33,197 nucleotides of DNA from contig DUCD01000470.1 of assembly GCA_012959985.1 (NCBI GenBank), positions 23,149 through 56,345 of the forward strand, given 5' to 3'. Positions 6,559 through 22,318 of this stretch are shown here, one piece after another (the stretch's first letter is position 1; every line of letters starts with the position of its first letter). Made by a program: the position numbers and the translations under genes. This DNA is from Verrucomicrobiales bacterium (GTDB lineage Bacteria > Verrucomicrobiota > Verrucomicrobiia > Limisphaerales > DUCD01). The notes beneath the pieces were generated by a model that was not told where the DNA came from, did not search any database, and saw only the letters and a program-made list of their open reading frames with translations.

Positions 6559-8286
6559 ATGCGTTTCCAAAGCGATTCACTTCACAGCAGCATGACTGGA
6601 CCGGAAAAAATCAACTCAGTTGAGAATGCAATTGAGGAATTGAAACAAGCAAAGGACCGATTTGCAAACGCATCGCTTTCCGCTCGAATCCAACTCCTCG
6701 GGGATTGTATAGACGGAGTAAATACCTATGCCAGAGAATGGGTGAAAGTAGCCTGCGAGGCAAAGCATATCCCATCTGGCAGCCCATTCAGAGCAGAGGA
6801 AGTCACAGGGGGTCCGATGGCAACGATTAGATTTCTTCAGCTTTTATTGATCAATTTAACCCACCATCATAGATACGGAAGCCCTCGTCTCCCTGGCCCT
6901 GTCACTCACTCTGATACCGGAGCGTTGCGCGTAAATGTAGTTCCGGACAAGAAGACCTTTGACCCCTGGCTTTTCAGAGGATTCAAGGCTGAAGTTCGAG
7001 TTAAAGAACCTGTTGATAAGGTGAATTTCCAAGAAACAGTTAGCCCGCGCGAACATTCTAAGGAAGATCTGAAAGGCAGAATTTGTCTGGTCCTCGGAGC
7101 TGGCAATGTATCAAGCATCCCTATAACCGATACCTTGTCTAAATTGTTTCTTGAACACAAATGTGTTCTTCTCAAGATGAATCCGGTCAACGAGTATCTT
7201 GGACCGATATTCTACAAGGCCTTTGCTTCATTGATCGATGAAGGTTTCTTTCAAATCATTTATGGAGACGCCGAGGTAGGAGCCAAAGCGATTCATCATG
7301 AACTAGTCGATTCAGTACACGTAACCGGATCAACTGCCTCTCATGATGCGATTGTCTGGGGGTCCGATGAAGCCGATCGAAAGAGTCGACTTCAACTCAA
7401 GCAACCCCTACTCACCAAAGAAATCACCAGTGAGTTGGGCAATGTCACCCCATGGATAGTCGTGCCCGGTCCCTATACGGCAAGGCAACTCAATTTCCAG
7501 GCCCAGAGCATTGCCGCTTCAATAGTCAATAATGCTTCCTTTAACTGCATCGCAACCAAAGTGATCTTAACACGTCGCCAATGGAACCAGAGAGAGACTT
7601 TCATGAACCAGTTGGAAAAGGAGTTGAGAAAAACACCTACGCGCCATGCCTACTACCCGGGAGCAGTGGAACGTTTCAAACGATTCTCTCCTCAGACAAC
7701 GATTTCGGATTCAGCAACAGAGTTACCATGGACATTAATTCGTAATCTCGATCCCGAATCGGCCGGTCTCTACCTACGGGAAGAATCTTTTGTTTGTGTG
7801 TGTGTCGAAGTTGCTCTTGATGCAGATTCGGATTCAGATTTTCTGAAAAAAGCGACACGGTTTGCCAACGAAGAACTCTGGGGAACCTTGGGAGCAGGCA
7901 TTACAGTTCATCCTAAGTTCAGAGCGAACACAGAAAACGAACAAGTATTCCAAGATTGTCTGGATCAACTGGAGTACGGTGTGATCGCCATCAATCACTG
8001 GGTTGGCATTGCCTTTGCCATGATGGGTGTTCCATGGGGTGGTCATCCAGGAAGTTCGATTGAAGATGTTAAAAGCGGCATCGGCTGGGTTCACAATGCC
8101 TACATGCTGAAGGACATCGAGAAAAGTATTCTTGAAGGACCGCTGACAGTGTTTCCCAAACCTATCTGGCTGCCCTCACATCAAAACCCGGAACCGATCA
8201 GCTGGCGGCTACTGGATCTTTATCACCGGCCTTGCTATTGGAACCTCTTCAAACTTCTAATGAGCGCAGTCGGAACCCGGCATTGA
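6559..8286 (+). CDS. Divergent aldehyde-dehydrogenase-superfamily protein
   Basis: The product has 575 residues, longer than a standard aldehyde dehydrogenase (about 480-500). A Rossmann-like stretch GRICLVLGAGNVSSIPITD (about 177-195) and SVHVTGSTASHDAIVWG (about 255-271) match the cofactor-binding half. ELGNVTPW supplies the general-base glutamate (E292), and NASFNCIATKVIL supplies a candidate catalytic cysteine (C330). EESFVCV corresponds to the EExFGPV block. The spacing between E292 and C330 is close to that in classical members. There is no signal peptide. The roughly 100-residue N-terminus and the long C-terminal tail (PLTVFPKPIWLPSHQNPEPI onward) are not typical. The substrate is unknown; a LuxC-like acyl reductase relationship is possible but not shown. 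It follows the M32 gene by 14 bases, with a purine-rich GGGGTAAG upstream of its ATG. Confidence 0.75.
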   Translation: MRFQSDSLHSSMTGPEKINSVENAIEELKQAKDRFANASLSARIQLLGDCIDGVNTYAREWVKVACEAKHIPSGSPFRAEEVTGGPMATIRFLQLLLINLTHHHRYGSPRLPGPVTHSDTGALRVNVVPDKKTFDPWLFRGFKAEVRVKEPVDKVNFQETVSPREHSKEDLKGRICLVLGAGNVSSIPITDTLSKLFLEHKCVLLKMNPVNEYLGPIFYKAFASLIDEGFFQIIYGDAEVGAKAIHHELVDSVHVTGSTASHDAIVWGSDEADRKSRLQLKQPLLTKEITSELGNVTPWIVVPGPYTARQLNFQAQSIAASIVNNASFNCIATKVILTRRQWNQRETFMNQLEKELRKTPTRHAYYPGAVERFKRFSPQTTISDSATELPWTLIRNLDPESAGLYLREESFVCVCVEVALDADSDSDFLKKATRFANEELWGTLGAGITVHPKFRANTENEQVFQDCLDQLEYGVIAINHWVGIAFAMMGVPWGGHPGSSIEDVKSGIGWVHNAYMLKDIEKSILEGPLTVFPKPIWLPSHQNPEPISWRLLDLYHRPCYWNLFKLLMSAVGTRH

Positions 8287-8703: not shown

Positions 8704-10269
8704 CTACTCGGTGAGAGATACCAGGAAGGACGTCAACGCTCCAGCTTCCTCCACGGTAAACAAGCCGGCCATTGAAGGCATCGGGGACTGGTCTGATGTT
8801 TCTCTTTTGGTGATCTTGGTTTTGTCGATTGACAGGTTTGTTCCATCAGGGAGAGCAAGGGTTATCGTATGTTCATCTTCGAAAACAATCCTGCCAGAAA
8901 TTGTTTCATCCTGATTATAGGTGATAAGGATAGGGGCATATCCTTCGGTGATTTTAGCACTGGGTGAGACAATGGACTCAAGAATGGCTTCCGGTTGCAA
9001 CCGGGATCCGATCCCGTTAAGCTTGGGACCGATATTCCCACCATCGGGTTGATCAGCTGTGTGACAGGTGACGCATAGATATTTCGAATAAAACAGATTC
9101 CTACCGAGTTTCGCATCCTCAAATATCAAAGCATCCCTGAATGTATCCATCGGATTGAGCATGCGCTGCTCAGCATCATTATCGGGCACAATCTGCCGAA
9201 TCCAATCAGCTATGAGGGAAGCGCCTTCTTCATCCACAAGCTTCCGCCCCAAAGTCGGCATCATGACCCCCAATTCCGTCGACTGAATTCGATGCAACAA
9301 AAACGATTTTTCGGGCTTACCTGGTTCGATACTGAAACGAAGACCACGAGACCCCCGACCGGCAGCAACCGGCGGTTTGTAAACTCCAAAACGGCCGGGA
9401 TCTTCCTGGTGGTATGAAAGATCAAGCCCAGTCACATTCGCCGGACCCTCCGGATTATGGCAATGAGCACAGTTCACTTCCAACCATGCCCGTGCCCTTG
9501 ACAGAACATCACCGGTGGTAGGATCATTCCACACGGGAAACTTGGAACCTGTTTCCACATCTGATGGAACGTCATTTATTAACCCCAAATCGTCCCAATG
9601 CTTCAGTTGGTTTTTTGTGCCTTGGACAAACTCCACATCACGATTCAGGTTTTCGACCTTCATACCGATTGGCGCCATGACCTCCCGGTTGACATGACAT
9701 TGTTTGCATTGGTTCATATTCGGCGTCACAAAATTATGCGCGCGATCTGATCCATCGAAGTGTTTCCAACTAACAGGAGTTTTTCGGCCGGCAACAGCAC
9801 GACGGGCATCATCCCCTGTCTCATTCCACACATAGGGTACACCAAGCCAACCTTTGTTCTGGTGAATCAGAAGACGTGTTTCAATTTGTTTTTCTCCCTT
9901 TGAAGCATCCCGGATATCATTCAAGTAATACAATGTCTGAATCAGGACAGTCCCCACAGGAAACTTAAAAATCCCGACCTTCTGATACACCGCTTGAGTC
10001 CCCGGAGGTACATACAAATAATGACGCGACCGGGTATAATCTGCAAAGTGTGTCGAATTCAGCTCGTAAGGGAAGACACCTACATTCGGAACCTGATTCT
10101 TCAAATCTATGAACAAACCATATTCCGAAAGGAGTTTTGCAGGACGTCTCGACTCAAGATCCACGACAATCGGCAACTCGGGTTTCTTCTGAATCGACAC
10201 CGTACGATCACATCCGGCAAGAAATGGAAGACAGCCTACAATTCCAAGGAATACACTTTTGAATCTCAT
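8704..10269 (-). CDS. Triheme lipoprotein: SO2930-family diheme cytochrome fused to a C-terminal CxxCH domain
   Basis: The product has 521 residues. A lipobox (LPFLAGC, cysteine at 20) predicts a lipid-anchored envelope protein. Residues about 35-370 match the SO2930/HNE_0200 family (TIGR03806), with CKQCH at 188-192 and CAHCH at 267-271. Residues about 385-515 add a separate cytochrome domain: CVTCH at 399-403, then GPKLNGIGSRLQPEAILESI and ALPDGTNLSIDKTKI. This resembles the TIGR02603 heme domain common in Planctomycetes and Verrucomicrobia. Three covalent hemes are therefore predicted. The start codon overlaps the stop of the shorter paralogue by four bases, so it is the last gene of a three-gene operon. 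A role in envelope electron transfer is inferred from the hemes; the donor and acceptor are unknown. Confidence 0.88.
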   Translation of the reverse strand: MRFKSVFLGIVGCLPFLAGCDRTVSIQKKPELPIVVDLESRRPAKLLSEYGLFIDLKNQVPNVGVFPYELNSTHFADYTRSRHYLYVPPGTQAVYQKVGIFKFPVGTVLIQTLYYLNDIRDASKGEKQIETRLLIHQNKGWLGVPYVWNETGDDARRAVAGRKTPVSWKHFDGSDRAHNFVTPNMNQCKQCHVNREVMAPIGMKVENLNRDVEFVQGTKNQLKHWDDLGLINDVPSDVETGSKFPVWNDPTTGDVLSRARAWLEVNCAHCHNPEGPANVTGLDLSYHQEDPGRFGVYKPPVAAGRGSRGLRFSIEPGKPEKSFLLHRIQSTELGVMMPTLGRKLVDEEGASLIADWIRQIVPDNDAEQRMLNPMDTFRDALIFEDAKLGRNLFYSKYLCVTCHTADQPDGGNIGPKLNGIGSRLQPEAILESIVSPSAKITEGYAPILITYNQDETISGRIVFEDEHTITLALPDGTNLSIDKTKITKRETSDQSPMPSMAGLFTVEEAGALTSFLVSLTE

Positions 10270-11465
10270 TCTCTGGATGAGGACGATTGAAGCAGGGGAA
10301 CATCTCGATGAACATTGAATATCTTAAGAACGGCCATTCTTCTCCGATCAATCCGCTCTTGAGCCTGAGTCAAGTCGGTATATTTCATTTGAGCAATCCA
10401 TTCACGAATCAAAGCAACCCCCTCTTCATGCACCAGATTTCTCCCAACGATAGGCATCCGTATTCCGGGATCGGTTGAATTCATTCGGTGGAAAATCATG
10501 GACTCATCGGGCTTACCTGGAACAATGGCGAATCGAGTATTACCAACACCGCGCCCAGCGGCAACCGGAGCTTTGAAGATACCGAAACGAAAGGGATTAC
10601 GCTGTTCGGCGGTCAGATCCAATCCAGAGGTAAAGGCCAGGCCATTCGGACGATGACAACTGGAGCAGTTCATTTCGAGATAGACTCTGGCCCGTGTATC
10701 GAGTGCCCCGGTGGAAGGATCATTCCACACGGGTGCTTTGGGAACTTCTTTGAGGTTTTCGGTGGACAACCCGGTTAAAACACCTTTTCGCATCCAATGG
10801 ATCAGCTGGTTCTCATTGCCTTCGGGATACCGGAAAACCTTGTTCAAATGCTTTGCATGTATCGGCCCTAAGGGCTCCAAACGCTCTTTGATTTCATGAC
10901 ACTGTTTACACTGATTGCGATTAGGAATCAGGTAGGAGTGGAATTTTGGTTTATTGTCATAATGAATCCAGGAAACATTCACTTTGCCACCAACCACCAC
11001 TAAGTTGGCATCTGTTGCGGACTCATCCCAAACATATTGAGCGGTCTGCCATCCCGATTCTGCCAACATCAACAATCGCGTTTCAATCAACTGCTCGCCA
11101 AGGGAAAAATCCTGAATATCATTCAAGTAACTCGCTGTGAGAATCAGGACTGAGCCCATGGGGAACTCCATTGAATAATCCTTGTTGAGACGAATCTTCG
11201 CAGCTTCGGGCACCCACAGAAAACGGCGCAGCTTTGCATAGTCAGAGAAATGAGGTGTGTTCAAGTCATAGGGAATCACTCTTTCATTCGGAATCTGTTT
11301 CCTTCCATCCTTGAAGAAATGATACTCACTGATTCTTTTCTTTGAAACTTGCGATACATCAAGGAAGGCAGGAAACTTTTCTGGAAATGTTTCTCCCCCA
11401 AACACGATGAAGTCAAGACAGCCGAACAGCCAAAGGAGTAAAACCCATGAAACGATTCGCCTCAC
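10266..11465 (-). CDS. SO2930-family diheme c-type cytochrome
   Basis: The 399-residue product is collinear with the first 370 residues of its downstream neighbour: ISEYHFFKDGRKQIPNERV, PHFSDYAKLRRFLWVPE and VLILTASYLNDIQDFSLGEQ all have counterparts. The heme motifs are CKQCH (186-190) and CSSCH (267-271). The N-terminus has a hydrophobic signal (residues 5-22). The Cys at 16 is not in a convincing lipobox, so it may be soluble in the periplasm. Families TIGR03805 (beta-helix) and TIGR03806 (this family) usually occur side by side, which the operon reproduces. It overlaps the upstream beta-helix gene and the downstream triheme gene by four bases each. Tandem duplication followed by gain of a heme domain in one copy is the simplest history (inference). 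Confidence 0.9.
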   Translation of the reverse strand: MRRIVSWVLLLWLFGCLDFIVFGGETFPEKFPAFLDVSQVSKKRISEYHFFKDGRKQIPNERVIPYDLNTPHFSDYAKLRRFLWVPEAAKIRLNKDYSMEFPMGSVLILTASYLNDIQDFSLGEQLIETRLLMLAESGWQTAQYVWDESATDANLVVVGGKVNVSWIHYDNKPKFHSYLIPNRNQCKQCHEIKERLEPLGPIHAKHLNKVFRYPEGNENQLIHWMRKGVLTGLSTENLKEVPKAPVWNDPSTGALDTRARVYLEMNCSSCHRPNGLAFTSGLDLTAEQRNPFRFGIFKAPVAAGRGVGNTRFAIVPGKPDESMIFHRMNSTDPGIRMPIVGRNLVHEEGVALIREWIAQMKYTDLTQAQERIDRRRMAVLKIFNVHRDVPLLQSSSSRE

Positions 11466-12790
11466 GGGTTGATCCCCTGGAGACTCACAGCGGAAACAGG
11501 AGGCAAGGCACCGGCGTGTGCCACCAGATCACGTTTGGGTTGGGCATTCTCTGGATCGACCAAACTGGCAAGCCCACCCAGATTACCAAAAGTAACCGCG
11601 CCTTTCTCTTTTTGGTTATTCTGGATGTAGATTCGCGACTCTGAAGGAAGCACACCGTCGGCAAGTTTCTCAGGATTAACCACACCGTCCCACACAATAT
11701 CGGGTAAAGGAGTTCCGAGAATCATTGTCATTAACTGCGTGCTCTCGCCCAAAGGATTGGACCCGCAATCGCCTAAGCGGTTGTTGTGAATGTGGACCCC
11801 TTCCGGATAGGAATAATAATTCGGATCATTGATTTTGATACCGGTAGATAGGTAACTTACAACCATGATGTTGACAGTGCCATGATCTTTGATGTCATTG
11901 TCAAAAACCTCCACGTTGGAATTGGCCATGACCATAATACCGGTACCCGTCGGCACCGACGCCACAATATTACCTTTCGGAGCAAAATTCAGCGTATTGT
12001 TATCATATACCTGATTCTTGAACAACCGGATGTCATGTCCACGCTGCTGAGGAAGGTCCGGCAAATCAAAGACCAGAATGCCACCGGTATTCAGCGTGGC
12101 CGTATTGTTGTAAACGTCCGCGCCGTGACAATTTTCGATTTCAATCCCTGCCACGTTATATTTCGCGGTGCAGTTCCGAACAATGACATTCCTGGATTGC
12201 CCCACATAGATACCAGAATCAGATCCACCGATGGCGACACATTCTTCCACCAATACATTCTCTGAGTTGACCGGGTAGATTCCGTAAGCACCATTGGTTT
12301 CCTTCGGACCGCTCGTCCATTCGACCCGAATCTTCCGGAGGGTGATGTGATTGGCAGTATGCGATTTCAGGCCGTTGCCACTGGTGTCCTCAATAGCCAA
12401 ATCCTCAACCAGCACATAATCACTGGTTATATACAATCCTTCGGCACCGGACTCCTGATTTTTGAAGCTCAAAATCGTTTGATCCATGCCACGACCACGA
12501 AGAGTAACATGATCAACATCCAATGAAAGCCCCCCGGTAAATTCGAACAAACCCGCTTCAAGTTGAATCACGGTTCCAGGTTCAGCCAGGATTAGTTCCT
12601 CTTGAAGTTCCATTTGAACATCGGGTCCCGGAGTGATCATAACAATGTCCGTAGACGCAGTATTCGAACGGGGATAAGAAGTGTTTTCTGATTGGGAAGA
12701 TTGCGGTGCCTGACTCGATTCCTTACAGCCCACACCAATAAAAAGGACCCCAATTGTAAAAAACGTAAATGACCAATTAAAATACCTCAT
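11462..12790 (-). CDS. Parallel beta-helix repeat lipoprotein (TIGR03805-like)
   Basis: The product has 442 residues. The lipobox FIGVGC (cysteine at 22) is followed by a Ser/Thr-rich linker and then, from about residue 60, PGTVIQLEAGLFEFTGGLSL. Successive short beta-strand turns follow (VLVEDLAIEDTSGNGLK, NVIVRNCTAKYNVAGIEIEN, ADVYNNTATLNTGGILVFD, VEVFDNDIKDHGTVNIMVVS). These are PbH1-type rungs of a right-handed parallel beta-helix, as in pectate lyases and related surface carbohydrate-active proteins. No catalytic residues can be assigned. It is the first gene of the operon with the two SO2930-family cytochromes, and its stop overlaps the next start (ATGA). It may bind or cleave a polysaccharide that the cytochromes oxidise or report on; that is inference. 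Confidence 0.88.
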   Translation of the reverse strand: MRYFNWSFTFFTIGVLFIGVGCKESSQAPQSSQSENTSYPRSNTASTDIVMITPGPDVQMELQEELILAEPGTVIQLEAGLFEFTGGLSLDVDHVTLRGRGMDQTILSFKNQESGAEGLYITSDYVLVEDLAIEDTSGNGLKSHTANHITLRKIRVEWTSGPKETNGAYGIYPVNSENVLVEECVAIGGSDSGIYVGQSRNVIVRNCTAKYNVAGIEIENCHGADVYNNTATLNTGGILVFDLPDLPQQRGHDIRLFKNQVYDNNTLNFAPKGNIVASVPTGTGIMVMANSNVEVFDNDIKDHGTVNIMVVSYLSTGIKINDPNYYSYPEGVHIHNNRLGDCGSNPLGESTQLMTMILGTPLPDIVWDGVVNPEKLADGVLPSESRIYIQNNQKEKGAVTFGNLGGLASLVDPENAQPKRDLVAHAGALPPVSAVSLQGINP

Positions 12791-12834: not shown

Positions 12835-13677
12835 CTACCCGATCTTATTCTTCAACTCGGTGAGCAGGTTGGCCGCATGACCGATCTCTGCTTTCTGCCG
12901 CTCGGGCTCTTGAGGAATCTCACGCTCAATTGTCAGTGGGCCGCTGTATCCAATTTCCTGAAGGGTTCGCAAATAGTTTTCCATACCGACATCCCCTTCC
13001 CCAAGCGGCACTTCCTGTCCCCACGTTTCTCCGGGTTTGTCAGACCATTTACCATCTTTGCAATGAATGCTCCGAACATACTTACCCACCTTCTTCAACG
13101 CATCGATCGGCTCTCCGGTTCCGTAAAGAATCATGTTGGCTGGGTCAAAGTTAATGAAGAGGTTGTCGCGATCCACATCCCTGATGAACTGAAGCAACCC
13201 CTCTGCGGATTCCTGACCGGTTTCAAGATTCAGGCTCTGATCATTAGTCTTGCAGTGATCACAAATGTCACGAGTGACACCAAGGACTTCTGCGTAGAGA
13301 GGATCACCGGTGTCGTGCGGGACAAACCCAATGTGCAATGCGACGACCTTACACTTCAACATTTTGGCGAAGTCGGCAATCTCCTTCATCTCCTGTGTTC
13401 GTGCTGAGCGCGTTTCTGGTGGGACCAGTCCAACCGTTTTTGAAACCGTCGGGATATCCGCATAGCTTTCCCCCTCAAAGCCCCCGAAAACGGCGGTCAG
13501 TTCAATCCCCAGATCAGCCAATCGAGCTAGAAACCTATCGGCATTCTCCTGGTTTCGGGTCTCTTTGGCCGGGGCATGCAACTGAATTGTTGGAATGCCC
13601 AACTCATGGGCAACTTCAAGCTTTACTCCAAGCCCCGCATCAACACTTGTAAATACACCTATCGGCCACTTATCCAT
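12835..13677 (-). CDS. Sugar phosphate isomerase/epimerase-like TIM-barrel protein
   Basis: The product has 280 residues with the xylose-isomerase-like TIM barrel (AP-endonuclease 2 family). Candidate metal ligands at the barrel's C-terminal edge are the glutamate in LNLETGQES, the aspartate in FINFDPANMI, the histidine in RSIHCKDG and the glutamate in LTIEREIP. The N-terminus (PIGVFTSVDAGLGVKLEVAH) is complete, and an AGGAG ribosome binding site lies eight bases before the ATG. There is no signal peptide, so it is cytoplasmic. Such proteins isomerise or epimerise sugars or inositol derivatives, but the substrate cannot be read from sequence. It is separated from the beta-helix gene by 44 bases and from the upstream repair gene by 128 bases. 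Confidence 0.88.
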   Translation of the reverse strand: MDKWPIGVFTSVDAGLGVKLEVAHELGIPTIQLHAPAKETRNQENADRFLARLADLGIELTAVFGGFEGESYADIPTVSKTVGLVPPETRSARTQEMKEIADFAKMLKCKVVALHIGFVPHDTGDPLYAEVLGVTRDICDHCKTNDQSLNLETGQESAEGLLQFIRDVDRDNLFINFDPANMILYGTGEPIDALKKVGKYVRSIHCKDGKWSDKPGETWGQEVPLGEGDVGMENYLRTLQEIGYSGPLTIEREIPQEPERQKAEIGHAANLLTELKNKIG

Positions 13678-16165: not shown

Positions 16166-17641
16166 TTACAGCAGAATTTTTTGAATAACCCGGCCTCCGA
16201 CATCGGTTAATCGGAACTTGCGGCTGTTGTAGGTGTAAGTCAGCTTTTCATGATCTAGCCCAAGCAGATGCAGGATGGTTGCGTGAAGATCATTCACATG
16301 CACTTTGTTGACTTCTGCTTTGTGACCGATCTCGTCTGACTCCCCGTAACTTACGCCGCCTTTGATTCCGCCTCCGGCCAACCAGGTTGTGAAGCAGTGC
16401 GGATTGTGGTCCCTGCCCGGTTTTGAAGCTTTTTGGGCAACTGGCAATCGACCGAACTCACCTCCCCAGACAACCAGAGTCTCGTCGAGCAGTCCGCGGT
16501 TTTCGAGATCGGTTAACAATCCCGCTATCGGCTGGTCCGTTTCCAAGGCGAATCCTGAATGATTTCCTTTGATATCGCTGTGCCCGTCCCAGCTTTTTTG
16601 GTTTTCATTCCCGCCGGAATAGATCTGTACAAACCGAACATCCCTTTCCACCAACCGACGGGCCATCAGGCACTGTTCTGCAAAATGACGGCAAGGTTGC
16701 TGATCCATGCCGTAAAGGTTTCTGATTGACTCAGGTTCGTGTTTCAGATCCAAAGCTTCCGGAGCGGCAACCTGCATCCTAAAGGCGAGTTCAAAACTTT
16801 CAATTCGCGCATTGAGTTCGGCTTCATGTGGCTGATTTTCTAAATGCGCCCGATTCAATTTTGCCAGGAAATCGAGATTTTCACGCTGGTCCTCTGCCGT
16901 GACACCCTGCCTACGTTCCAGGTTTTGAATGGGCTGTCCATTGGGACGAAACCAGGTTCCCTGAAATGGTCCGGGAAGAAAACCCGCGCTCCAATTGGAA
17001 GCATGACCCTTGGGAAGGCCTCGACCTTTAGGATCGGACATGACGACAAATCCCGGAAGATTACGATTTCCACTGCCCAGCCCATAGGAGACCCATGATC
17101 CGAGACTCGGCAACCCCATGCGAGCTTGCCCACAATTCATCATGAATAGGGCCGGGCTGTGGTTGTTGGATTCTGTAAAGCCCGAATGGATGAATGCCAT
17201 CCTGTCCACATGACGTCCGAGGTGTGGGAAAATCTCCGAAACCATTTTCCCGCATTGCCCTCGCGGCGTGAAGTGAAAAGGTGATTTCATAATACCACCC
17301 ACCTGATTTGCAAAAAAACCGGTGAATTTATCGAAACCTTCCAAGGTATTGCCGTCATATTTTTCCAGTCGAGGTTTATAATCCCAGGTATCCACCTGAC
17401 TGGGTCCACCATTAACGAAGATCCAAATGACCCTTTTGGCAGAGGGCTGGAAATGGGCGGGTTTTGCCAACAATGGCTGTGAGCTCGCCCCTCGCCGGAA
17501 CGTGTTCGCAGGCAGTGAGACCAATCCGAATTCATCGCTTAGCAATGCAGCAAGTCCGAGTATGCCAGCCCCGCCCCCGCACCTTTTCAGCATATCCCGA
17601 CGGGTCAGGGAATGAGTGTTTACTGAGAATGGAGGATTCAT
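16166..17641 (-). CDS. Tat-exported DUF1501 protein
   Basis: The product has 491 residues. The twin-arginine signal is LTRRDMLKRCGGGAGILGL (about 12-30). DUF1501 blocks follow: KRVIWIFVNGGPSQVDTWDY (about 68-87), ALFMMNCGQARMGLPSLGSW, RDVRFVQIYSGG, LVVWGGEFGRLPVAQ and HNPHCFTTWLAGGGIKGGVS. The fold belongs with the alkaline phosphatase/sulfatase superfamily, though catalysis has not been demonstrated for this family. In Planctomycetes and Verrucomicrobia these genes sit beside DUF1549/DUF1553 genes, as here. The start overlaps the upstream DUF1553 stop by four bases (ATGA). Conserved histidines and aspartates suggest a metal site, consistent with Tat export of a folded protein. Confidence 0.92.
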   Translation of the reverse strand: MNPPFSVNTHSLTRRDMLKRCGGGAGILGLAALLSDEFGLVSLPANTFRRGASSQPLLAKPAHFQPSAKRVIWIFVNGGPSQVDTWDYKPRLEKYDGNTLEGFDKFTGFFANQVGGIMKSPFHFTPRGQCGKMVSEIFPHLGRHVDRMAFIHSGFTESNNHSPALFMMNCGQARMGLPSLGSWVSYGLGSGNRNLPGFVVMSDPKGRGLPKGHASNWSAGFLPGPFQGTWFRPNGQPIQNLERRQGVTAEDQRENLDFLAKLNRAHLENQPHEAELNARIESFELAFRMQVAAPEALDLKHEPESIRNLYGMDQQPCRHFAEQCLMARRLVERDVRFVQIYSGGNENQKSWDGHSDIKGNHSGFALETDQPIAGLLTDLENRGLLDETLVVWGGEFGRLPVAQKASKPGRDHNPHCFTTWLAGGGIKGGVSYGESDEIGHKAEVNKVHVNDLHATILHLLGLDHEKLTYTYNSRKFRLTDVGGRVIQKILL

Positions 17642-19689
17642 GGCAGATATAGAAACTCGTTTGAAGAAAGGAGGGCTCGGCAGAATTCAGTAAAAGCCGA
17701 CAACAAAGGTTGTTCTTTGTCGATTCCAGTTTCTGCTCGGCGGATAATGAAATCTGCGGATGCCTGCAATTCGATATCCACTGGCTTTCGATTCAGAATC
17801 CGGAGCCAGACAACGGTTATCGCATGGGGCAACGATTCACTATTCTCAGGGCCGTATTTTTTTGCGATGGCATCCGCACAATATTCAACGAGGGGACCAT
17901 TCATCAACGAGAGAGCCTGTGGGGCTGTAGTGGTTGATGTTCGTTTTCCGATACTACCCAGATGTTCAGGCCAATCGAAAACCTGCATCATCGGAATGAG
18001 CCCACTGCGTTTAATTGTATAATAGATACTGCGTCGCCTCATGTTTTCATTTAGTGACCCGGGGCCATACATTTGACGGTCCAATAATCCTGATACCGCA
18101 AGCATCGAGTCCCTGATGGCTTCAGCTTCCAAGCGTCGAGGTGAGAATCTCCAGTGGTGATTGTTTTCCGGATCAAGGGAATGGCCCGACGGGTTGCCGG
18201 CGTTGGAGCTCAGTCGGTAAACAGAACTCGTCATGATTAGTTTGTGAAGGCGTTTGAGTTTCCAGCCGTGATCTATCAGATCGTTCGCCAACCAATCCAG
18301 CAGATGGGGATGGGTGGGCAAGGCACCTTGGTTTCCGAAATTATTCGGAGTTGCCACAAGCCCCGTGCCAAAATGCTGTTGCCAGATTCGATTCACGATG
18401 ACGCGTGCAAGAAGCTGACCGGCTCCGTTGTTCGCGTCAGTCAACCACCGCGACAGCGCCGCCCGGCGGCCCGGAATTCGAGAATTTTCACTGATTTTCG
18501 TTACCCAATGAGATTCTTCTTTTCCATTCTGCTTAAGAGCATTCGGATACCCCGGGCTTACCGCATCTCCTTTCTGGTCAACGTCGCCGCGTTTGAGGAA
18601 ATAAACATGCGGATAGAAATGAGGATAACCTCTGCCATCGGCATGGTGTGATAGCGGTTTAACTCCATCGGAACAAATCAGCGCCGGCAGTTTCCCTTCG
18701 GCAGGTTTGCTTTTATCATGCGCAGCCAGTTTCTTATTCACGGATTCGAGCTGATCGTCATTTGCGGTTTCCACTGCTTTCATTAACTTCAGCCTTTTCG
18801 TTTCCCACTGAAGGAACGATTTTTGAAAAACATCTGAATGAACGTTTACGCGTTGTTCGCTCTTTACGGTGGTTACAAAGGCGGATGCAAGGCGGTAATA
18901 GTCCCTGCTGGTAACGGGATCGAACTTATGATCGTGGCAACGAGCGCAGCCAAAGGAAAACCCCAGAAAAGCAACTCCAATGGTTTGAACCATATCATCC
19001 AGTTCGTCGTATCTGGCCTGTTCGAATTCTGCCTCGGTCAGTTGAGTTGGGAAAACACCGGCGGCAAGAAATCCGGTTGCCGATCTTGCCAGTGGTTCAT
19101 CAGGAGCCAGTTCGTCACCGGCTATCTGCAATCGAACCATTCGATCCCAAGGCATATCCATATTGAAAGCCTGAATCAGAAAGTCTCTATAGTGATAAGC
19201 CAGCGGTCGGTCAGTGTCATGTTCGAAGCCCGAACTTTCTGCAAATCTGGCGATATCCATCCAGTATCGTGCAGATCTTTCGCCATAATGATCCGATACG
19301 AGGAGATGATCGATGAGTTCGCTCCATTTTCGGTCTGAAGCAAGGTCATCGAACATGGCTAATTCATTCCTACCGGGAGGCATACCGGTTAGATCCAAAA
19401 AAGCACGTCGAATCAGAGTGGATGAACTCGCAAAAGAGTTTTGAATGATTCCGAGCCCGTTCAGGCGCTTGAGAATAAAACGATCAAGATCATTTTTTGC
19501 ATGGATCGGGTTGTCTAGTTCCGGAGGCTGAATCGGCTTCAAAGGTTGAAATGCATAAGATCGGGATGAGCCGGTTTTTGAACTTTTGTCTTTAAACTGG
19601 TTGGCCGTAATTTCACCGGGCTCAGCGTTGAGACAACTCAGGGTCAGAACAATTCCAAAAAGGAGCACATTTAATTTCGAGAATGACAT
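17638..19689 (-). CDS. Exported DUF1549/DUF1553 protein (short form with internal CARCH motif)
   Basis: The product has 683 residues. After a Sec signal (residues 7-22, NVLLFGIVLTLSCLNA) the DUF1549 region (about 60-270) begins with DNPIHAKNDLDRFILKRL. It includes RYWMDIARFAESSGFEHD and a possible heme motif CARCH at 248-252. DUF1553 (about 400-655) is shown by RAALSRWLTDANNGAGQLLA, RIWQQHFGTGLVATPNNFGN, LIMTSSVYRLSS and RRSIYYTIKRSG, ending LLSSNEFLYLP. Many relatives have an extra N-terminal cytochrome (PSCyt1) domain and reach 750-1100 residues; this one lacks it. Its partner is the DUF1501 gene immediately downstream (ATGA overlap), and the cyanophycinase-like gene ends 18 bases upstream. 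No reaction is known for the pair. Confidence 0.92.
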   Translation of the reverse strand: MSFSKLNVLLFGIVLTLSCLNAEPGEITANQFKDKSSKTGSSRSYAFQPLKPIQPPELDNPIHAKNDLDRFILKRLNGLGIIQNSFASSSTLIRRAFLDLTGMPPGRNELAMFDDLASDRKWSELIDHLLVSDHYGERSARYWMDIARFAESSGFEHDTDRPLAYHYRDFLIQAFNMDMPWDRMVRLQIAGDELAPDEPLARSATGFLAAGVFPTQLTEAEFEQARYDELDDMVQTIGVAFLGFSFGCARCHDHKFDPVTSRDYYRLASAFVTTVKSEQRVNVHSDVFQKSFLQWETKRLKLMKAVETANDDQLESVNKKLAAHDKSKPAEGKLPALICSDGVKPLSHHADGRGYPHFYPHVYFLKRGDVDQKGDAVSPGYPNALKQNGKEESHWVTKISENSRIPGRRAALSRWLTDANNGAGQLLARVIVNRIWQQHFGTGLVATPNNFGNQGALPTHPHLLDWLANDLIDHGWKLKRLHKLIMTSSVYRLSSNAGNPSGHSLDPENNHHWRFSPRRLEAEAIRDSMLAVSGLLDRQMYGPGSLNENMRRRSIYYTIKRSGLIPMMQVFDWPEHLGSIGKRTSTTTAPQALSLMNGPLVEYCADAIAKKYGPENSESLPHAITVVWLRILNRKPVDIELQASADFIIRRAETGIDKEQPLLSAFTEFCRALLSSNEFLYLP

Positions 19690-19707
19690 TATCGAATGCT
19701 AATTGTA

Positions 19708-20544
19708 TTACCGACGTCTCGCTGAAATACGTTGTCTTTTCACCAAATCGTATTTTTGCCCCGTCGCCAACAGTTCAAATGGAGCCCCGGTGGATTTCAT
19801 TTTTTCATGATCATAAAACGCCACATAGGTTTTCCCCATAACCCGGCATTGATTCCGTTGAACAAGAATTACCGTCCCCTCATCCAGTCCTATCCCCAAC
19901 AGATGTGGATGCTTTTCAATGACTGGAATCAGATCAAACTGGCGATTTCTCCGTAACAGGTGCTGATCCACTGCTGAGTTTTTAAGGAAAGCCATTCCTT
20001 CCAGGTGATCCCCCATCATGAGCTCATTTCCTTCAGTATCACCTCTGACCAAGAAAGACCCCTGAATGGTGGCTCCAGCTGATGATCCCGCTATGACTCC
20101 TCCGCGTATCAGTAAATTCCCCAACTCCCGATGAACCCGAGTATTGAGGCAGGAGTCAACCAGACGCCATTGCCGTCCACCGGTAATCCACACGCCTCCC
20201 GCCTGTGTTAAGGAATCGTTGAATTCAAAGGATTCTGATTCAGCGCGATCACGAGTGTGGAGAACCCTCAGATTCAGCGCTCCCGCAGCTTTTAAAGGCT
20301 GCAATCCATTCCAGTCACTACCGAATTCATTCCGGGTACCAGCTGTAGGTATGATGACAATCAGGGATTCTGATCCACCGGCCAGTTCGATAAACTGTTT
20401 GTAGATCGAATCTTCAATCTGTCCACCACCTACAAGAATCAATGATCCGTTTTCAGGTCCGGTTGTTTGAGATTCGACGACAGTGCAAGGACAAAACGCA
20501 AAAGCAAGAGCAAGAATAAATGATAAAGTAAGACGTGGTTGCAT
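19708..20544 (-). CDS. Exported cyanophycinase-like serine peptidase (S51 family)
   Basis: The product has 278 residues. The N-terminal signal peptide (residues 5-22) predicts export. The catalytic elbow is GVIAGSSAGATIQG with the nucleophile at S155. The histidine lies in SAVDQHLLRRNRQFDL, and GIGLDEGTVILV carries the conserved acidic residue. GSLILVGGGQIEDSIY opens the Rossmann-like core. Cyanophycinases hydrolyse beta-linked Asp-Arg polymer (cyanophycin) to dipeptides; secreted forms allow bacteria to feed on it, but related S51 peptidases cleave ordinary Asp-X peptides. The gene is first in an apparent operon with the DUF1549/1553 and DUF1501 genes, which places it in an envelope nutrient-scavenging context. 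No cyanophycin synthetase is nearby, consistent with an exogenous substrate (inference). Confidence 0.9.
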   Translation of the reverse strand: MQPRLTLSFILALAFAFCPCTVVESQTTGPENGSLILVGGGQIEDSIYKQFIELAGGSESLIVIIPTAGTRNEFGSDWNGLQPLKAAGALNLRVLHTRDRAESESFEFNDSLTQAGGVWITGGRQWRLVDSCLNTRVHRELGNLLIRGGVIAGSSAGATIQGSFLVRGDTEGNELMMGDHLEGMAFLKNSAVDQHLLRRNRQFDLIPVIEKHPHLLGIGLDEGTVILVQRNQCRVMGKTYVAFYDHEKMKSTGAPFELLATGQKYDLVKRQRISARRR

Positions 20545-20678
20545 GATTTCGAAACTCTGACAGAAAAATTTAAATTGGGAAACCGTAATTCCGACCTATC
20601 AACACCGGACATAAACGCGATTGCCTAAATGCTTCTGCCATCGACAATTTCGACAAAATTATCCCACCAGGACGTCCC

Positions 20679-20918
20679 TTGAGCGAGCTGGACAATCAAC
20701 TCCCTCCACGCGAACGTATCCTGGGGGTGTTTTTGAGGGAAATGAAAAAGGCGATTCTGCAACTGCGCTTCTCCAGAAAGAAGGTGAATTTTTTCCTGTA
20801 CCAAACGCCACCATTTACTGGTTTGCCTGGCGATCGGCTCATGCCACTACTGAGATTCCCGCTCCTTTATAGATTGAATTATGACAAGCCCTATGAAATG
20901 ATGCCGGAAGTCCCATGA
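20679..20918 (+). CDS. Small unrecognised ORF coupled to the DUF1501 gene
   Basis: An open frame ends with a TGA that overlaps the next gene's ATG (ATGA at 20915-20918), the same junction seen between the confirmed operon pairs here. It is open from about 20589, but has no ATG before codon 23 of the version starting with TTG at 20679 (79 residues). The sequence (SELDNQLPPRERILGVFLRE to PYEMMPEVP) matches no family I recognise and has no signal or membrane segment. It could be a small real protein, the tail of a decayed gene, or chance. The rest of the 370-base gap 20545-20914 holds the start region of the divergent cyanophycinase gene and nothing else recognisable. Confidence 0.3.
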   Translation: MSELDNQLPPRERILGVFLREMKKAILQLRFSRKKVNFFLYQTPPFTGLPGDRLMPLLRFPLLYRLNYDKPYEMMPEVP

Positions 20919-22318
20919 GACGACAAGCTCATCAACATTCGGAGCCGCATGCGTTTTCATACCTGAATGCCCGAAGGCGTGACGGCTTGAATATTTTCAG
21001 CCGACGCAGTGTCCTGAAAGCGGGGCTGGCAGGAATCGCGGGCTTAACCCTTCCCGGTCTGATTCGAATTCGCAGTGAAGCGACAGGGAAAGGGGTCAGC
21101 CTACCTGGTCAAAAATCAGTCATCCTGATCTGGATGACCGGAGGTCCTTCCCAAATTGATACCTGGGACATGAAACCGGATCGCCCGTATGAAAACCGGG
21201 GACCCTTTTCGCCCATATCCACGAAGGTGCCGGGAATCCGGGTCTGTGAACATTTCCCGAAGCAGGCAGCCATGATGGACAAATTCACCTTGATCCGTTC
21301 CGTGGATTGCCGCTTCAGCAACCATGAACCGAATATGGTGATGCAGACCGCACATCCGGAGGCTGCCCCGCGCATCAATCCCAAGGGACACCTTTACCCC
21401 GCTATCGGGTCCATGGTTTCCCAGCTTCGCGGTCCTAATCATCCGTCGATGCCTCCTTATGTTGTTCTGAATATGAAGAGTCGATCTCACGTCGCCTGGG
21501 GAGGCTATGCAGGTAAACAATACGATCCCTTCGTGGCAAAGGATGTCAGCAAGCTGTTTCAAATGCCACGGGGATTGACTATGGACCGGATTCAATCCCG
21601 CCGTTCCCTTCTAAAACAAATGGATCGACTACGGTCCAACCTGGATACGCAGGGGCAAATGGAAGCGATGGATTTTTTCGAACAAAAAGCTTTTGACATG
21701 ATCGCAGGAGGACGGGCTCAATCGGCCTTCGATCTTTCAAAGGAATCTCCAAAAACGCTGGAACAGTATGGGGATCACGATTGGTGGCGACAGGCATTGC
21801 TTGCAAGACGTCTTGTTGAAAACGGAGTCAGCTTTGTCACGATCGACTTAAGCAATCACGGTGCTTCGGGAACCTGGGACACCCATGGAGACAACATTCC
21901 TCCCTATGGTGGAATCTGGAACGGACTACGCCCTCTGCTTCCGATTTTCGACCATCTGATCAGCACTCTGGTCAACGACCTCGACGAACGTGGCATGCTT
22001 GATGACACCTTGGTTATCGCCATGGGAGAATTCGGACGCACCCCGACTCTGGGAACACAAGGCAGCACTGACGGACGTAACCACTGGCCTCATGTTTCAT
22101 CCATGCTCATGGCAGGTGGAGGATTCAGACACGGCCAGGTAATTGGAGCCACATCCAAAGACGGCGGTGAAATCGCGGAACGGCCGGTATCACCGGGGGA
22201 CATTGCGGCCACAATCTATCATCACCTCGGGATTCCGTTGGATTCCACCTACCTCGATCATCAGGGTCGACCGATCTACATCATTCAGGATGGAAAGCCC
22301 ATCTCGGAAATGGTGTGA
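20915..22318 (+). CDS. Tat-exported DUF1501 protein, second copy
   Basis: The product has 467 residues. An N-terminal extension of about 28 residues precedes a twin-arginine signal (FSRRSVLKAGLAGIAGLTLP). Family blocks are KSVILIWMTGGPSQIDTWDM, RFSNHEPNMVMQTAHPEAAP, ALLARRLVENGVSFVTIDLS, TLVIAMGEFGRTPTLGTQG and HVSSMLMAGGGFRHGQVIG. It ends in the usual way with GIPLDSTYLDHQGRPIYI. It is the GEFGRTP-type DUF1501, a different subtype from the one at 16166. Unlike most relatives it has no DUF1549/1553 gene directly upstream on the same strand; the nearest lies on the opposite strand at 17638-19689. It may therefore partner with that divergent operon or be an orphan. It is followed by a convergent gene and a palindromic repeat. 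Confidence 0.92.
   Translation: MRRQAHQHSEPHAFSYLNARRRDGLNIFSRRSVLKAGLAGIAGLTLPGLIRIRSEATGKGVSLPGQKSVILIWMTGGPSQIDTWDMKPDRPYENRGPFSPISTKVPGIRVCEHFPKQAAMMDKFTLIRSVDCRFSNHEPNMVMQTAHPEAAPRINPKGHLYPAIGSMVSQLRGPNHPSMPPYVVLNMKSRSHVAWGGYAGKQYDPFVAKDVSKLFQMPRGLTMDRIQSRRSLLKQMDRLRSNLDTQGQMEAMDFFEQKAFDMIAGGRAQSAFDLSKESPKTLEQYGDHDWWRQALLARRLVENGVSFVTIDLSNHGASGTWDTHGDNIPPYGGIWNGLRPLLPIFDHLISTLVNDLDERGMLDDTLVIAMGEFGRTPTLGTQGSTDGRNHWPHVSSMLMAGGGFRHGQVIGATSKDGGEIAERPVSPGDIAATIYHHLGIPLDSTYLDHQGRPIYIIQDGKPISEMV

Follow-up and report, generated by a model that had tools for sequence, protein, structure and literature searches.

What does a beta-helix lipoprotein do together with two different diheme cytochromes, one of which has a third heme domain? 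The genes for such a set overlap one another in a Verrucomicrobiales contig, of which a stretch of 33,197 nt, here called the window, was analyzed. The underlying pair of a TIGR03805 helix and a TIGR03806 (SO2930-type) cytochrome is widespread in bacteria and ranges over alpha- and gammaproteobacteria including SAR86, Acidobacteriota, Planctomycetota, and Hydrogenedentota, yet it has no function in the literature searched, which held no functional study and no activity for either family.

Organization of the cassette and divergence of the two cytochromes

The cassette is encoded on the minus strand and reads from 12790 to 8704 in the order helix, copy A, copy B. The first gene (11462..12790, minus strand, 442 aa) encodes the beta-helix lipoprotein, which matched the whole TIGR03805 profile (1-314 of 314) with 411 bits (cut-off 141.5) and is 68% identical to the helix of locus L197. 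Copy A (10266..11465, minus strand, 399 aa, GTG start) is a diheme cytochrome with two CxxCH motifs and 355 bits to TIGR03806 (cut-off 313.3). Copy B (8704..10269, minus strand, 521 aa) has three CxxCH motifs. Its core scored 350 bits with the same profile and cut-off and contains the canonical heme motifs NQCKQCH and NCAHCH, and in its C-terminal region (8707..9150, minus strand) residues 385-499, with the motif LCVTCH, matched TIGR02603 with 78.5 bits (cut-off 68.15). As profile scores, these family matches are far beyond chance. A 4-base stop/start overlap, GTGA, joins helix and A (11462..11465, minus strand), and another, ATGA, joins A and B (10266..10269, minus strand); both were read from the sequence. 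The first-pass annotation, which had described three genes coupled by 4-base overlaps and encoding a beta-helix, a diheme cytochrome, and a paralogue extended by a TIGR02603 domain, was therefore right in its coordinates and domain calls, all of which lie above the NCBIfam curated cut-offs.

A TIM-barrel gene (12835-13677) located 44 bases upstream of the helix gene was rejected as an operon member because no relative was found near any other helix locus. An Rfam search gave no match, and promoter and terminator scans stayed at chance level. Further upstream of the cassette, the region 16166-22318 contains two DUF1501 genes and one PSCyt2/PSD1 gene, which are typical of Planctomycetes and Verrucomicrobia.

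Two of the three products had been thought to carry lipoboxes. The motifs LFIGVGC of the helix and PFLAGC of copy B fit the PROSITE-type pattern, and copy A has a weak lipobox-like LWLFGC with a loose fit. In the other two-copy loci a lipobox is present in 7 of 7 helices, 6 of 6 B copies, and 0 of 7 A copies. As none of the seven orthologues of copy A has a lipobox, two lipoproteins is indeed the better reading.

The two copies share 43% identity. Each has all the residues that are invariant across 54 SO2930 sequences, among them Met337 and both CxxCH motifs, and so both should be working cytochromes. Six A copies (window, L046, L047, L188, L191, and L197) have a serine within the second heme motif, which is otherwise always C-x-His-C-H; in the window, NCSSCH replaces NC[AGS]HCH. 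The A copies of L048 and L186 retain the histidine. All A copies have an arginine in place of Met336, and B copies are marked by Trp262 and Lys/Arg157. Judged from these residues, A and B are not interchangeable.

The C-terminal domain of copy B matches the C-terminal domain of Kustd1711, a diheme cytochrome of Kuenenia (PDB 7zs0, profile E 3.2e-15; Foldseek match to 7zs1, E 3.5e-5), and is by this homology predicted to bind a third heme and to contain an Hfq-like "nose" insertion. The His/Met hemes of Kustd1711 have potentials near +350 mV with calcium, which is bound close by, and the protein has an Hfq-like nose domain (PMC11791136). Structure matches to Hfq reflect this nose and do not point to RNA binding. 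With a solved electron-transfer cytochrome as the match of the third domain, the electron relay suggested on first reading is plausible.

Rarity and history of the two-copy form

A contig scan, for which an alignment of two sequences was used as query (a single-protein query found none), yielded 80 named helix loci, and in 78 of them an SO2930 gene follows the helix gene. One SO2930 copy is present in 76 of these 78 loci and two copies in L046 and L048; the sequence of L047 stops just past copy A, and the copy number is not readable there. Targeted searches of 68 Hydrogenedentota genomes and of 170 genomes from the order of L046 added the two-copy loci L186, L187, L188, L191 (incomplete), and L197, the last of which has three SO2930 copies. 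Including the window, this makes eight two-copy loci, and the unit thus occurs in at least three phyla: Hydrogenedentota, Planctomycetota, and that of the window. At the outset, the duplicated and extended form had been called unusual; two copies in just 2 of 78 named loci agree with this, and a two-copy arrangement in most loci, which would have spoken against it, was not observed. The cassette is rare but not unique, and it is a rare version of an already known, unexplained gene pair.

A maximum likelihood tree was calculated from 51 SO2930 domains, without inference of the root. The B copies all fall into a single clade (100/97), as do the A copies into a second one (95/94). In the helix tree, the two-copy loci group together (100/97) next to single-copy helices from Hydrogenedentota. 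Because the two-copy loci form one clade in the helix, A, and B trees each, one old duplication that was inherited as a cassette is indicated. The two-copy form probably originated in the Hydrogenedentota. The simplest history would be a duplication in or near this phylum, a subsequent spread of the three-gene unit to the Planctomycetota and the window's lineage, and the gain of a third heme by B in the branch of the window, L046, and L197 (98/96). As the tree has no inferred root, this direction is only presumed.

The third heme on B is common to these three two-copy loci, with TIGR02603 scores of 109 and 112 bits in L046 and L197. In the loci L198, L199, and L208 of a different lineage, a single SO2930 copy carries TIGR02603. 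These copies are far from the B clade in the tree, and the fusion probably happened at least two times. The claim that one cytochrome copy had gained a third heme domain is true for B, but the extension is not found in this genome alone, as L046, L197, and the three single-copy loci have it as well.

TIGR03805 was absent from all other genomes among 388 sampled from the window's phylum, and TIGR03806 over its cut-off was absent from all other genomes among 245 of the window's order. The cassette is therefore foreign to these relatives, most simply by horizontal transfer. Its GC content of 0.47-0.48, compared with 0.51 in the immediate neighbors, is a weak sign of foreignness only. Relatives of the PSD1 gene near the cassette occur in 63 further genomes of the order, and thus the contig looks like the host's own, with some room for mis-binning in this metagenome-like assembly of 524 contigs. 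No relatives were found on viral contigs. TIGR03806-like domains occur in 122 of the 245 genomes of the order, all below the cut-off except the window's and mostly as parts of much larger proteins (800-2000 aa). Four further strong domains of this kind are present in the genome to which the window belongs.

A putative periplasmic redox unit and its alternatives

In 27 loci from Planctomycetales, including the named loci L054 and L103, helix and SO2930 are encoded in one open reading frame. These fusions imply that the two act as partners; the association is well supported, and the helix-cytochrome pairing noted at first is borne out. The model of a fused protein forms one body (pTM 0.79, mean pLDDT 79), which is compatible with a fixed helix-SO2930 interface but is not proof of it. 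The SO2930 part was modeled with good confidence (pLDDT 80-98 in most blocks of residues 1-330 of the model); no solved relative of the whole domain was found. The motifs YGxYPV, DAGIYVGQS, VAGIEIEN, and GGILVF are conserved along the helix. A loop at W158-G167 (WTSGPKETNG; 12290..12319, minus strand) contains a tryptophan, W158, that is present in 48 of 48 aligned SO2930-partnered helices, and this loop is a candidate docking or active loop.

Four Hydrogenedentota genomes encode a helix of the TIGR03805 family whose fusion partner is a diheme domain of the MauG/MbnH type rather than SO2930 (L204:3609-6059, L205:3883-6267, L206:6911-9220, and L207:5860-8172). The domain scored 185 bits with PF03150, and 238 and 231 bits with TIGR03791 and TIGR04039, both below their cut-offs. 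The Trp loop is absent from these helices. In the window, the cytochromes gave no CCP_MauG match that would indicate a MauG-type enzyme in the cassette. Other arrangements were also seen. A second helix gene directly follows the MauG-type fusion in L205, and tandem helix genes occur at L200:4380-7530, L201:3725-6302, and L080:10007-12437, with no SO2930 gene within the stretch covered for L200 and L201. On a Pseudoalteromonas plasmid, a protein of 2157 aa with a starch-binding annotation (L045:2622-9095) has an SO2930-like domain, which scored 238 bits with the local profile, and another two CxxCH motifs.

The neighboring genes differ between lineages. In Gammaproteobacteria, a PQQ dehydrogenase gene is found near about 8 helix loci, and in Planctomycetales most helix-SO2930 genes are immediately preceded by an aldehyde dehydrogenase (ALDH)-like gene. 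A gene of this family is also present in the window (6559..8286, plus strand), tail-to-tail with the cassette at a distance of 417 bases. Its product matched Aldedh with 44.6 bits and has the Cys and Glu catalytic motifs (FNC, residues 328-330; ELGN, residues 292-295), which by sequence place it in the aldehyde dehydrogenase superfamily. The gene is foreign to the window's order: a search of 115 further genomes from it gave no relative at E 1e-40. In Planctomycetales, an ALDH relative is present in 33 of 35 helix genomes versus 35 of 135 others (Fisher p 6e-14, with kinship ignored). In the tree, the window's ALDH groups with copies lying away from helix genes, so that co-function is only suggestive, and the gene may belong to the system as a fourth component. 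A strict partnership was rejected because ALDH was absent from 68 Hydrogenedentota genomes, in a search that had no positive control but used a query that matched elsewhere. In L212, a single open frame of 1178 aa extends from ALDH through helix to SO2930.

Based on the observed gene content, co-inheritance, divergence of A and B, helix-SO2930 fusions, and homology of the third domain, we tentatively propose, with a probability of about 45%, that the cassette codes for a single periplasmic redox unit of oxidoreductase type. The helix lipoprotein would be a membrane-anchored scaffold facing the substrate, onto which the SO2930 cytochromes dock. After the duplication, A (soluble, with an altered second heme site) and B (a lipoprotein with canonical sites) would have taken different positions in the electron chain, and in the window's branch B would have gained a Kustd1711-type heme domain as the exit, passing electrons to a high-potential acceptor such as a periplasmic cytochrome c or a terminal oxidase. 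We infer a physical complex of the three proteins, the order A to B to third heme, and an outward flow of electrons. The reaction would be the oxidation of a substrate, for which the neighboring genes make an alcohol or aldehyde the best guess.

Several other roles have to be weighed against this proposal. Methylamine dehydrogenase is the substrate of MauG, and MbnP is that of MbnH. By analogy, SO2930 might oxidize a residue of the helix or help to build its metal site, after which the helix would work alone. The fusion of the same helix family to MauG/MbnH-type domains in four Hydrogenedentota genomes, a MauG-type gene that in Ruegeria precedes the helix gene by two positions, and the invariant Trp together with a remote similarity to the copper protein NosD (37 bits to TIGR04247, below its cut-off of 300) point in this direction. 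However, MauG-fused helices lack the Trp loop, contrary to the prediction from a shared Trp modification, the invariant Met after the second CxxCH of SO2930 is typical of an electron carrier, and the third heme on B is left unexplained, so that we regard such a modification as unlikely. It would be a quite speculative step further to see in the TIGR03805 helix a dedicated partner of unrelated diheme enzymes, mostly SO2930 and elsewhere of the MauG/MbnH type, with an oxidized or metal-bearing site that they make or use, and in the pair a new class of periplasmic oxidoreductases. The first-pass annotation had favored a carbohydrate-binding or -cleaving helix, which would be of the epimerase, lyase, or hydrolase type with an accessory redox relay. 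The fused-protein model is a right-handed helix like alginate epimerase AlgE4, polygalacturonases, and phage tailspikes, and a weak profile match to alginate lyase was obtained. But the matches to AlgE4 and polygalacturonases are what any right-handed beta-helix gives, and a comparison with viral proteins returned generic beta-helices only. No carbohydrate-enzyme family (PL, GH28, epimerases) was over cut-off in Pfam or NCBIfam, with only the generic Beta_helix and NosD in Pfam, and profile matches to solved helices were marginal and confined to the first turns (7dmk, E 0.005). Carbohydrate-utilization genes are not prominent among the clustered neighbors, and lyases, epimerases, and hydrolases require no electron carrier. 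This function has no support apart from the fold and is quite doubtful.

The direction of electron flow might also be reversed, the unit reducing an external acceptor or detoxifying an oxidant at the outer membrane. A network paper places S. oneidensis SO_2930 and SO_2931 in its outer-membrane/extracellular column (PMC4837345), which agrees with electron entry, but no porin or large multiheme conduit lies beside the cassette, and the likeness of the third domain to a high-potential carrier fits the transfer of electrons to an oxidase; we think entry quite improbable. Least of all do we expect a neutral duplication with redundant A and B. The family-invariant residues are kept in both copies, as redundancy would allow, but both copies have been kept across three phyla with a constant order, a constant lipobox split, and copy-specific residues. 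Concrete and cheap tests of the role of the pair are offered by the fusions, the copy-specific change of a heme site, the Trp loop that varies with the partner, and the third heme, for which a well-studied homologue exists.

Comparison with known systems

The window resembles the TIGR03805/TIGR03806 pair of S. oneidensis (SO_2930/SO_2931) in that both families are over their cut-offs, and in gene order, short spacing or overlap, and export signals. It differs from this pair in that SO2930 is present in two diverged copies, the second of which carries a TIGR02603 heme domain. The Hydrogenedentota fusions L204 to L207 join the same helix family to a diheme c-type protein, but this is of a different family, and the helix is without the Trp loop. 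Kustd1711 shares with window B the C-terminal cytochrome domain with the Hfq-like nose, but in Kustd1711 this type of domain is present twice and SO2930 is missing. The two-copy loci of Hydrogenedentota (L048, L186, L187, L188, and L191) have orthologous A and B copies and the lipobox on B, whereas their B copies are without a third heme and the A copies of L048 and L186 have the CxHCH histidine. L046 (Planctomycetaceae S139_18) and L197 (genome G770 of the same order) differ from the window in a further third SO2930 copy in L197 and in identities of about 66-68% for the helix and lower for the cytochromes, but both have the same helix-A-B order and the third heme on B, and they contain the nearest relatives of the window's helix and copy B.
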